41,797 nt of DNA from Plantactinospora mayteni (GTDB lineage: Bacteria; Actinomycetota; Actinomycetes; Mycobacteriales; Micromonosporaceae). A program made the position numbers and the translations under genes. Below the pieces are notes generated by a model. The model saw only the letters and a list, made by a program, of their open reading frames with translations. It did no database searches and was not told where the DNA came from. The stretch is from assembly GCF_016862935.1 (NCBI RefSeq), contig NZ_BONX01000061.1, positions 1-41,797 of the forward strand, written 5' to 3'. Below are positions 26,392 through 31,890 of this stretch, in pieces (within the stretch, counting starts at the first letter, position 1; the number at the start of each line of letters is the position of its first letter).

Positions 26392-29300
26392 GTGTTCAGC
26401 CGTATCGCCATCGTCAACCGTGGTGAGGCCGCGATGCGCCTCATCCACGCGGTCCGAGAGCTGGCTGCGGAGACCGGGACGCGGATCGAGACCGTCGCCC
26501 TCTACACCGACGTCGACCGCACCGCCACATTCGTACGCGAGGCGGACCTCGGCTACTACCTCGGCCCCGCCTCCGCGCGTCCGTACCTCGACATGACGGC
26601 GCTGGAGCGTGCGCTCCTGCGGTCCGGGGCCGACGCCGCGTGGGTCGGTTGGGGCTTCGTCGCCGAGGACCCGGCGTTCGCGGAGCTGTGCGACAAGCTC
26701 GGGGTCACCTTCGTCGGGCCGAGCGCGGACGCCATGCGGCAACTGGGCGACAAGATCGGCGCGAAGCTGATCGCCGAGGAGGTCGGCGTCCCGGTCGCGC
26801 CGTGGAGCCGCGGCGCGGTCGAGACCCTGGACGCGGCCCTGGCGGCGGCGACCAAGATCGGCTACCCGCTGATGCTGAAGGCGACCGCGGGCGGCGGCGG
26901 GCGCGGCATCCGAGTGGTCACGAACGACTCCGAACTCTCCGACGCCTTCGAGCGGACCAGCCAGGAGGCGGCGCGGGCGTTCGGCAGCGGCGTCGTGTTC
27001 CTGGAACGCCTGGTCACCGGTGCGCGACACGTGGAGGTCCAGGTGATCGCCGACGGCCAGGGCACCGCCTGGGCGCTCGGCGTCCGCGACTGTTCGGTGC
27101 AGCGGCGCAACCAGAAGGTGATCGAGGAGTCGTCGTCGCCGGTACTCAGCCCGGCGCAGGCCGCCGAACTCAAGGCGTCCGCCGAACGGCTCGCCGTCGC
27201 GGTCGGGTACCGGGGTGCGGCAACCGTCGAGTTCCTCTATCACCCCGGCGACCGGCTGTTCGCGTTCCTCGAGGTCAACACCCGGCTACAGGTCGAGCAT
27301 CCGATCACCGAGGCGACCACCGGGTTCGACCTGGTCAAGGCGCAACTGCACGTGGCCGCGGGCGGGCGGCTCGAGGGCGAGCCGCCGGTGGAGCGCGGGC
27401 ACGCCATCGAGGCCCGGCTGAACGCCGAGGACCCGGACCGCGACTTCGCGCCCTCCCCCGGCCGGATCGTCCGGCTGGACCTGCCGGCCGGGCCGGGCAT
27501 CCGGGTGGACACCGGTGTCAGCGAGGGCGACACCATCCCGGCCGACTTCGACTCGATGATCGCGAAGATCATCGCCTACGGTCGTGACCGCGCCGAGGCG
27601 CTCGGCAGGCTGCGCCGGGCGATGGCGGAGACCACGGTGGTCATCGAGGGCGGCGCGACGAACAAGAGCTTCGTGCTCGACCTGCTCGACCAGCCCGAGG
27701 TGATCGACGCCAGCGCGGACACCGGCTGGATCGACCGCGTCCGGGGTACGGGCCGGCTGGTCGCGCACCGGCACTCCGCCGTCGCGCTGGCGGCGGCCGC
27801 CATCGAGACGTACGAGGAGGAGGAAGGCGTCGAGCGGCGGCGACTGCTGGCGACGGCGTCCGGCGGGCGCCCGCAGGTGCAGCACTCCAGCGGCCGACCG
27901 TTGGACCTCAAACTGCGCGGCGTCGGCTACCGGATCCGCGTGGCACGGATCAGCCCGCACCGGTTCCGGGTCGGCATCGAGGCGGGCGGCGGCGTGCACA
28001 CCGCCGACGTCGAACTCGACCGCTTCGACCGGCACAGCGGACAGATCGTCGTCAACGGCAACCGGTACCGCCTGCTCACCGGGACGCACGGGCCGACCCA
28101 TCTGGTCGAGGTGGCCGGCGTGACGCACCGGGTCAGCCGGGACGAGGGCGGCGTCGTCCGCTCCCCGATGCCCGCGCTGGTCGTCGCCACGCCGCTGCCG
28201 GTCGGCGCCGAGGTCGAGGCCGGCGCGCCGGTACTGGTGCTGGAAGCCATGAAGATGGAGACGGTACTGCGGGCGCCGTTCAAGGCGCGGCTGAAGGAAT
28301 GCGCCGTCTCCGTGGGCAGCCAGGTGCAGGCCGGCGCACCGCTGCTGCGGCTGGAGCCGCTCGGCGACGGGGCCGCCGACACCCCGGCCGTTGCCTCCGT
28401 CGAACTGGACCTGCCGACCGCGCCCGAGGAGATCCCGGCGCGGCAGCGCACCCGGCGCGGCCAGGAGGACCTGCGCGGCCTGCTGCTCGGCTTCGACGTC
28501 GACCCGCACGACGACCGCCGGGTACTCGACGACTACCTCGGCACCCGGCGGGCGGCCATCGAGGAGGGCCGCCGGCCGCTGGCCGAGGAACTCGACCTGG
28601 TCAACGTGTTCGCCAACCTCGCCGAACTGAGCCGCAACCGGCCCACCGGCGAGGACGGCGGCGGCGAGGCCCACGTGCACAGCGCCCGGGAATACTTCCA
28701 CACCTACCTGCAGAGCCTCGACGTCGAGCGGGCCGGGCTGCCGGACGCGTTCCAGGCCAGGCTCGCCCGGGCACTCGGGCACTACGGTGTCACCGAACTG
28801 GAGCGCTCCCCCGCGCTCGAAGCCGCCGTGTTCCGGATCTTCCTCGCCCAGCAACGCGCCTCCGCCGACGCCACCGTCGTCGCGACGCTGTTGCGCGCGT
28901 GGCTGCGGGAGCCGCCGCCGGACGAGTCGCTGCGCGAGCCGGCCGGTCTCGCGCTGGAGCGACTGGTGGCCGCGACCCAGGTCCGCTTCCCGGTGGTCGC
29001 CGACCTCGCCCGGGGCGTGGTGTTCGCCTGGTTCGCCCAGCCGCTGCTGCGGCGCAACCGCGCCCTGGTCTACGACCGGGTCCGCACCCACCTGCGCCAC
29101 CTGGACGAGCAGCCGGACGCGCCGGACCGCGCCGAGCGGATCGCGGAGATGGTACGCAGCACCGAGCCACTGGTCCGGCTGCTCGGCCGGCGGCTCCACC
29201 GCGACCACCTCGACCACGCGGTCATGCTGGAGGTGCTGACCCGGCGGTACTACGGCAACAAGGGGCTCACCGGCGTCAACACCCGCGAGGTCGCGGGCTG

Positions 29301-31890: not shown

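Follow-up and report, generated by a model that had tools for sequence, protein, structure and literature searches.

A single-chain acyl-CoA carboxylase, probably of the SACE_4237 type, in Plantactinospora mayteni and its tendency to exclude accD6 across an order of Actinomycetota

The locus and the integrity of the reading frame

The window, i.e. the whole stretch of DNA analysed here, comprises 41,797 nucleotides of contig NZ_BONX01000061.1 of Plantactinospora mayteni. Positions 26392 to 31890 of its forward strand are occupied by a single open reading frame of 1832 codons that starts with GTG and contains no internal stop codon. The gene (from here: fused ACC gene) and the features assigned to it are:

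26377..26383, plus strand: likely ribosome-binding site GGAGGGG, 8 nt 5′ of the GTG, proposed from the sequence
26392..31890, plus strand: putative acyl-CoA carboxylase of the SACE_4237 type, a multidomain single chain of 1832 aa that begins at a GTG codon
26392..27735, plus strand: biotin carboxylase (BC) domain, residues 1–448 (Pfam; EVNTRLQVEH at 294–303; alignment of 103 sequences)
27766..28140, plus strand: predicted BT-like domain, about residues 459–583 (long helix and eight strands in the model)
28156..28353, plus strand: biotinyl (BCCP) domain, residues 589–654 (Pfam and motif position)
28438..29262, plus strand: predicted central helical part (CDN/CDL-like), about residues 683–957 (helical in the model; profile match to yeast ACC)
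29269..30132, plus strand: predicted central alpha/beta part (CDC1/CDC2-like), about residues 960–1247, its limits drawn by eye on the modelled secondary structure (Pfam, profile, model, Foldseek)
30166..31851, plus strand: carboxyltransferase (CT) domain, about residues 1259–1820 (Pfam Carboxyl_trans 1324–1820; PDB matches)

An in-frame stop codon lies upstream at 26326, and the GTG is the sole ATG, GTG or TTG codon in frame after it. The initial annotation had considered that the frame might prove to be two genes with a frameshift. The open frame was accompanied by an even GC3, which ranged from 0.89 to 0.98 in all 18 consecutive 300-base intervals and thus did not indicate a frameshift. Homologous frames resemble the window frame in length, although their starts were set via alignment to the window protein and provide no independent check of the start. 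Nothing was found in favour of two neighbouring genes or a frameshift artefact; with the frame open, GC3 even and homologues of similar length, we discarded this reading as having a negligible probability and regard the frame as one gene. Mean column identity amounted to 82% over BT-BCCP (31 members) and to 57% over the central region plus CT (53 members, down to 45% identity with the window protein), a conservation that, judged from these alignments, is not due to chance. On the minus strand, an antisense frame of 1286 aa (27286–31146) overlaps the fused ACC gene; it matched zero families in a Pfam scan and is probably a shadow frame of GC-rich coding sequence.

Directly 3′ of the fused ACC gene, an MFS transporter gene is located on the same strand (31988–33466), for which there were 0 matches in the 80 named loci considered below. 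Elsewhere in the window, the gene of a chloramphenicol phosphotransferase-like protein (Pfam CPT, E 2.3e-68) and an adjoining MFS transporter gene on the same strand lie in 15121–17172, and a sulfate-type ABC transporter consisting of a binding protein, two permeases and an ATPase is encoded behind an Rrf2 regulator (20420–24951, minus strand).

Domain architecture and the central region

Pfam families were matched in the order Biotin_carb_N (residues 1–115), CPSase_L_D2 (120–328), Biotin_carb_C (340–448), Biotin_lipoyl (589–654), ACC_central (1043–1195) and Carboxyl_trans (1324–1820, E 2e-33). The 14 BC positions that were inspected are conserved in 101–103 of the 103 aligned sequences; their roles we take to be those of the corresponding residues in E. 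coli BC. A separate model of residues 439–700 (mean pLDDT 68) consists of a long helix and two sets of strands, eight of them in the first, which we read as a predicted BT followed by BCCP. By Foldseek, this model matched PCC and MCC alpha chains as well as the yeast BT-BCCP structure 5csa (TMq 0.57). The biotinylation motif EAMKM is located at residues 618–622 (28243–28257), with residue 621 as the biotinyl lysine. ESMKM is the commoner form among the 121 homologue sequences tested for this pattern, occurring in 84 of them, compared to 32 with EAMKM, two with other forms and three without a pattern match.

The match to ACC_central had an E-value of 1.5e-11 and a score of 43.8 bits, above the cut-off of 23.2, covering 499–647 of the 726 model positions. 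A profile of 53 homologues spanning residues 656–1832 of the window protein was compared with the PDB at E 0.001 and matched 23 distinct sequences, all 23 of them named acetyl-CoA carboxylase. Residues 948–1611 of yeast ACC (5csk) were matched in one stretch by profile positions 162–734 (i-Evalue 9e-24), a stretch that takes in the larger part of the central domain as well as the beginning of CT. The AlphaFold2 model of residues 656–1832 (mean pLDDT 77.7, pTM 0.66) is helical up to residue 957 and continues with an alpha/beta part ahead of CT. When this model was searched against the PDB by Foldseek, the best 20 rows were all ACCs from yeast, Chaetomium, human and filament entries, with a best E-value of 3.5e-40, identities of 15–18%, modest TM-scores of 0.29–0.50 by query and an rmsd of 14–34. 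The low TM-scores and high rmsd values may be ascribed to a differing placement of domains in the model, as would be expected from the hinges reported for fungal ACC (PMC4833862). A loop with a regulatory phosphoserine was also described for the central domain of fungal ACC (PMC4833862).

For the CT part, 32 PDB sequences were matched, of which the best 20 are named acetyl-CoA carboxylase and outrank bacterial beta subunits; we take these 20 to be eukaryotic single-chain ACCs. The initial annotation had described BC, a biotinyl domain with EAMKM, a central region and CT in the order of eukaryotic ACC within 1832 residues, and Pfam, the profile comparison and the predicted fold bear this out. 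It had also proposed an ACC_central search and had allowed that the central region might show no homology to eukaryotic ACC; Pfam, the profile match to yeast ACC and Foldseek instead agree, on sequence and on modelled structure, that the central region is homologous. The eukaryotic enzymes (yeast, Chaetomium, human ACC1) share the order BC-BT-BCCP-CDN/CDL-CDC1-CDC2-CT with the window protein, but they are longer, with about 2200–2400 residues in the PDB chains versus 1832, at identities of 15–18%.

Relationship to characterized carboxylases

The prototype of bacterial multidomain ACCs is SACE_4237 of Saccharopolyspora erythraea (Livieri et al. 2019, PMC6491548). It was purified and described as a homodimer of about 400 kDa with kcat/Km values (per s per mM) of 0.85 with acetyl-CoA and 0.52 with propionyl-CoA that is inactive with palmitoyl-CoA, complements E. 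coli L8 and is essential, a requirement that is relieved by oleic acid (PMC6491548). It also has PCC activity in S. erythraea and affects the erythromycin yield (PMC6491548), and its transcript was reported to be raised in an over-producer (PMC3733707). The statement of the initial annotation that such fusions are largely uncharacterised in bacteria and the acyl-CoA substrate open is therefore outdated. Eight families were named as carriers of multidomain ACCs, a large actinobacterial group was noted to lack orthologues of the essential CT of S. coelicolor, C. glutamicum or M. tuberculosis, and a CT tree including eukaryotic sequences was published (all PMC6491548).

The window protein resembles SACE_4237 in its domain set including the central region, its size class of about 200 kDa and the organism group. 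The forward primer given in PMC6491548 encodes, by translation by eye, MFSRVAI, as in the family of the window protein. SACE_4237 is absent from the 80 loci kept in our search and the link to it runs via the genus Saccharopolyspora: the homologue from Saccharopolyspora rosea (L113) shares 84% identity with the window protein along its residues 1–1817, and the two fall into one group in a quick tree with 118 rows. The two proteins differ in that the activity of SACE_4237 was measured, whereas the window protein is known from its sequence and predicted fold. Judged by these similarities, the window frame encodes a close relative, probably an orthologue, of the SACE_4237-type actinobacterial homodimeric multidomain ACCs.

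LCC is another bacterial single-chain enzyme with BC, BCCP and CT, and these three domains on one chain are what speaks for placing the window protein there. LCC was described as a hexamer with long-chain substrates and without the eukaryotic-type central region (PMC6491548). The LCC structure 4rcn has 1093 residues against 1832, including ACC_central, in the window protein, it is missing among the 32 PDB sequences matched by CT, and the inactivity of SACE_4237 with palmitoyl-CoA points in the same direction (PMC6491548). We consider membership in the LCC family very improbable and ruled out this assignment.

We favor the reading of the fused frame as a SACE_4237-type homodimeric ACC, with a probability of about 0.8 for the enzyme and its reaction. 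By analogy, the BC domain would carboxylate the biotin on Lys621 using ATP and bicarbonate, BCCP would ferry carboxybiotin along the hinged central scaffold, with the central region acting as a hinged spacer, and a CT dimer would move the carboxyl group to acetyl-CoA, yielding malonyl-CoA, and to propionyl-CoA, yielding methylmalonyl-CoA. The domain order, the homology and the conserved motifs are observed; the reaction, the dimer and both substrates would follow from the characterized relative.

The window protein belongs to a kind of enzyme already described and common; the part that we did not find in print is the link to a loss of accD6. In the open-licence literature, considered by titles and the openings of abstracts, PMC6491548 was the only one among the matches listed that treats this type of bacterial multidomain ACC, and none among the matches listed dealt with the loss of accD6 accompanying it. 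The terms AccD6, fabD and horizontal are all absent from the main text of PMC6491548, in which lateral transfer is mentioned a single time, in connection with how the eukaryotic gene arose.

Other carboxylase genes and the fab operon of P. mayteni

A scan of the P. mayteni genome with PF01039 revealed four CT loci (five matches) besides the fused gene. Two are acyl-CoA CT genes, with the beta subunits of propionyl-CoA carboxylase (370 bits) and MCC (551 bits) as the best PDB matches. The CT loci on contigs C2 and C39 look, from their sequences, like accD-accA fusions of the E. coli type; biotin carboxylases are encoded near both.

In 40 of the 41 genomes compared, canonical AccB/PccB scored above 750 bits (E limit 1e-40), the exception being P. 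mayteni itself. There, contig C28 ends inside AccB, leaving 17 residues near the N-terminus (94% identity, E 6e-6) that adjoin the sequence expected at this place by synteny with a congener (G003). We rejected a loss of AccB from this genome, as the contig end cuts the gene and is most likely an assembly break. Since the remnant stands at the contig end, the standard AccB system is probably encoded in P. mayteni. The initial annotation held that actinobacteria normally use separate subunits; the prevalence of AccB/PccB supports this, but the fused ACC is not an exception among them, given the frequencies described below.

AccD6, which in mycobacteria combines with an alpha subunit into the acetyl-CoA carboxylase of the FAS-II locus, is the enzyme with which the fused ACC may share its job, the provision of malonyl-CoA for fatty acids; it differs in that its CT, of about 475 aa, is a subunit of its own with a gene in the fab operon. 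In a genome of the same family (G016), genes for a FabD-like protein (scoring under the cut-off of the FabD model), FabH, ACP and FabF are followed by a CT gene of 478 aa that is 64% identical to a CT of 473 aa in G031. By its place and by this identity, and with G031 taken as Mycobacterium, we infer that it is accD6. The corresponding block of P. mayteni is 82% identical at the DNA level up to the end of fabF and the similarity resumes behind accD6. The products of fabD, fabH, acpP, fabF and the downstream gene were found at 77–96% identity, while accD6 was not found by protein search at this operon. This operon lies on a single contig (C12; L232, 2432–7116), where 216 bases separate the match to fabF from that to the gene after it, with accD6 absent between them. 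The same check for a shared contig thus gave opposite outcomes for the two genes: AccB is broken by a contig end and accD6 is missing within one contig.

In the family of P. mayteni (f1), accD6 followed fabF in 13 of 25 genomes and was not seen there in 12, from a search of 28 genomes and the source G016. The fused gene was present in 6 of the 13 with accD6 behind fabF versus 10 of the 12 without it (p 0.097). One of the 12, G009, encodes a divergent accD6 (62%) elsewhere in the genome.

Fused ACC and accD6 across genomes

Of 396 genomes drawn from across the phylum, 29 contained ACC_central, compared to 0 of 14 controls, and those members that belong to further classes of Actinomycetota provide material for the question of where the eukaryotic fusion arose. 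A search of genome contigs confirmed at least 584 relatives, of which 80 loci were kept. Within the order, 143 of 298 sampled genomes carry the fused ACC, counting as carriers those in which the C-terminal 796 residues were matched with an E-value of at most 1e-100. In this order of Actinomycetota, an ACC built like the eukaryotic one is hence ordinary and no curiosity.

In the set of 41 genomes, 21 including P. mayteni contain the full-length fused gene, which was absent from the congener G006 in this search, and 25 contain accD6 with a score of at least 460 bits, the highest score under this limit being 416 bits. Both genes occurred in 8 genomes, the fused gene alone in 13, accD6 alone in 17 and neither in 3 (Fisher p 0.0036). 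On the assumption that the two scans covered the same 298 genomes, the respective numbers for the order are 55, 88, 137 and 18, so that 88 of the 143 carriers were without accD6 at the limit used, and the 18 genomes with neither gene compare to 55 expected under independence. The order-wide Fisher p of 5e-20 ignores shared ancestry.

At the level of families, where the tests likewise ignore shared ancestry, the picture is mixed. Exclusion was not significant in f1 (10/32/5/7, p 0.28) because of genus g12, whose seven sampled genomes are devoid of both; without g12, p was 0.002, a cut chosen after seeing the data. Of the 18 genomes with neither gene, these seven could be placed, and the other 11 were assigned to one family at a time as the worst case. 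Exclusion then held in f15 (p 0.006) and f10 (p 0.029) and failed in f2 and f4 (p 0.69 and 1.0), the latter values becoming 0.003 and 0.029 if none of the 11 belong there. In genus g4, accD6 was present in 10 of 40 carriers versus all 3 non-carriers (p 0.023). Carriers retained accD6 in 15 of 18 cases in f8 and in 16 of 17 in f16. Uncorrected for ancestry, the two genes tend toward mutual exclusion across the order, not in every family. The genomes of g12 with neither gene at the limits used are G017, G508, G520, G569, G601, G651 and G690; they must rely on a different acetyl-CoA carboxylase, possibly AccB.

A possible replacement of AccD6

As accD6 is missing behind fabF in P. mayteni, we infer that the fused ACC supplies fatty acid synthesis in its place, and we lean toward such a takeover of the malonyl-CoA role of AccD6 in this organism. 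The fused ACC may additionally feed polyketide synthesis, and in carriers without accD6 it would be the main source of malonyl-CoA. For M. tuberculosis, AccD6 was reported to use acetyl-CoA, its place in the holo complex being left unclear (PMC4347857), and accD6 to be essential (PMC5311964). In M. smegmatis, accD6 is dispensable because, according to the authors, AccD5 can use acetyl-CoA (PMC5311964). By this precedent, AccB could do the work in P. mayteni too, which is the main rival explanation: AccB and its partners would make the housekeeping malonyl-CoA and the fused ACC/PCC would add malonyl-CoA and methylmalonyl-CoA for secondary metabolism. It is consistent with the near-ubiquity of AccB and the AccB remnant in P. 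mayteni, with the presence of the fused gene in just 21 of the 41 genomes, with the g12 genomes that manage without either gene, and with the PCC activity, the effect on erythromycin yield (PMC6491548) and the over-producer transcript (PMC3733707) of SACE_4237. Against it, SACE_4237 is essential for fatty acids though S. erythraea also has a PccB-type subunit (PMC6491548), accD6 is absent from the fab operon of P. mayteni, and no polyketide synthase was found in the 36 frames of the window scanned with Pfam. We regard this division of labour as rather unlikely, yet the takeover of the AccD6 role has its own difficulties in that AccB is probably still encoded, the congener G006 is without a full-length fused gene and the carriers in f8 and f16 mostly keep accD6.

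The accD6 pattern gives a partial hint on the role of the fused ACC and the reason for the spread of the fusion. If the fused ACC indeed took over from AccD6, genomes would allow a prediction of which enzyme provides the malonyl-CoA that fatty acid and polyketide synthesis consume.

Phylogeny, neighborhood and spread

The quick tree was evaluated by SH-aLRT only and left 40 of its 114 inner branches open. In it, the window protein and the congeners G001 and G003 nest inside a group with Micromonospora species, and the other congeners occur in two further supported groups, one with G002 and G004 and one with G005. Identities to the window protein were 94 and 92% for two congeners and 74–76% for the three others, compared to 88% for two genomes from the family but outside the genus and 87% for one from a different family, which agrees with the placement in the tree. 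One genome (G589, contig C1) carries two copies of different lineages (3931970–3934351 and 5307167–5309506), whose C-terminal parts show identities of 90% and 79% with that of the window protein.

Apart from the ABC ATPase, found in 20 loci, none of the 19 other window genes was matched in more than two of the 80 named loci (flanks of up to 10 kb, some shorter), and in five loci from close genomes the window neighbors gave just a weak ABC ATPase match. Clustering of flanking frames from 89 loci plus the window yielded no family present in more than 11 loci; some neighbors are common to five or six very close Micromonospora. A functional link of the fused ACC to its neighbors in the window was rejected, the gene content nearby not being conserved across genera. 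The copies of Gordonia and Tsukamurella are on records annotated as plasmids (174 and 386 kb).

The gene looks accessory and, because of the unrelated neighborhoods even in close relatives and some plasmid records, it has probably spread horizontally as a self-contained one-gene ACC; an old duplication with differential loss is the alternative explanation of its distribution. Tentatively, and with somewhat less than even odds, we suggest that the fused ACC constitutes a module spreading horizontally in Actinomycetota that repeatedly displaced accD6 from the fab operon and, in Tsukamurella, became joined to a type I fatty acid synthase (FAS) and AcpS. If the displacement is true, a eukaryote-style dimeric ACC drives bacterial fatty acid synthesis, and if the joining is true, Tsukamurella possesses a unit of single-chain ACC and single-chain FAS.

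In Tsukamurella tyrosinosolvens (L161, NZ_LR134452.1, 2238–17454), the genes of a type I FAS, a holo-ACP synthase and the fused ACC are arranged head to tail; this FAS has 3099 aa and is annotated as a type I PKS. Judged by title, none of the literature listed for such an arrangement deals with it. Proximity of FAS-I to the fused ACC was seen in 2 of the 18 genomes of f8 that were checked (G591, G637). Of the other 16, six have both on one contig, separated by 140 kb or more, and ten have them on different contigs, for which closeness is possible.
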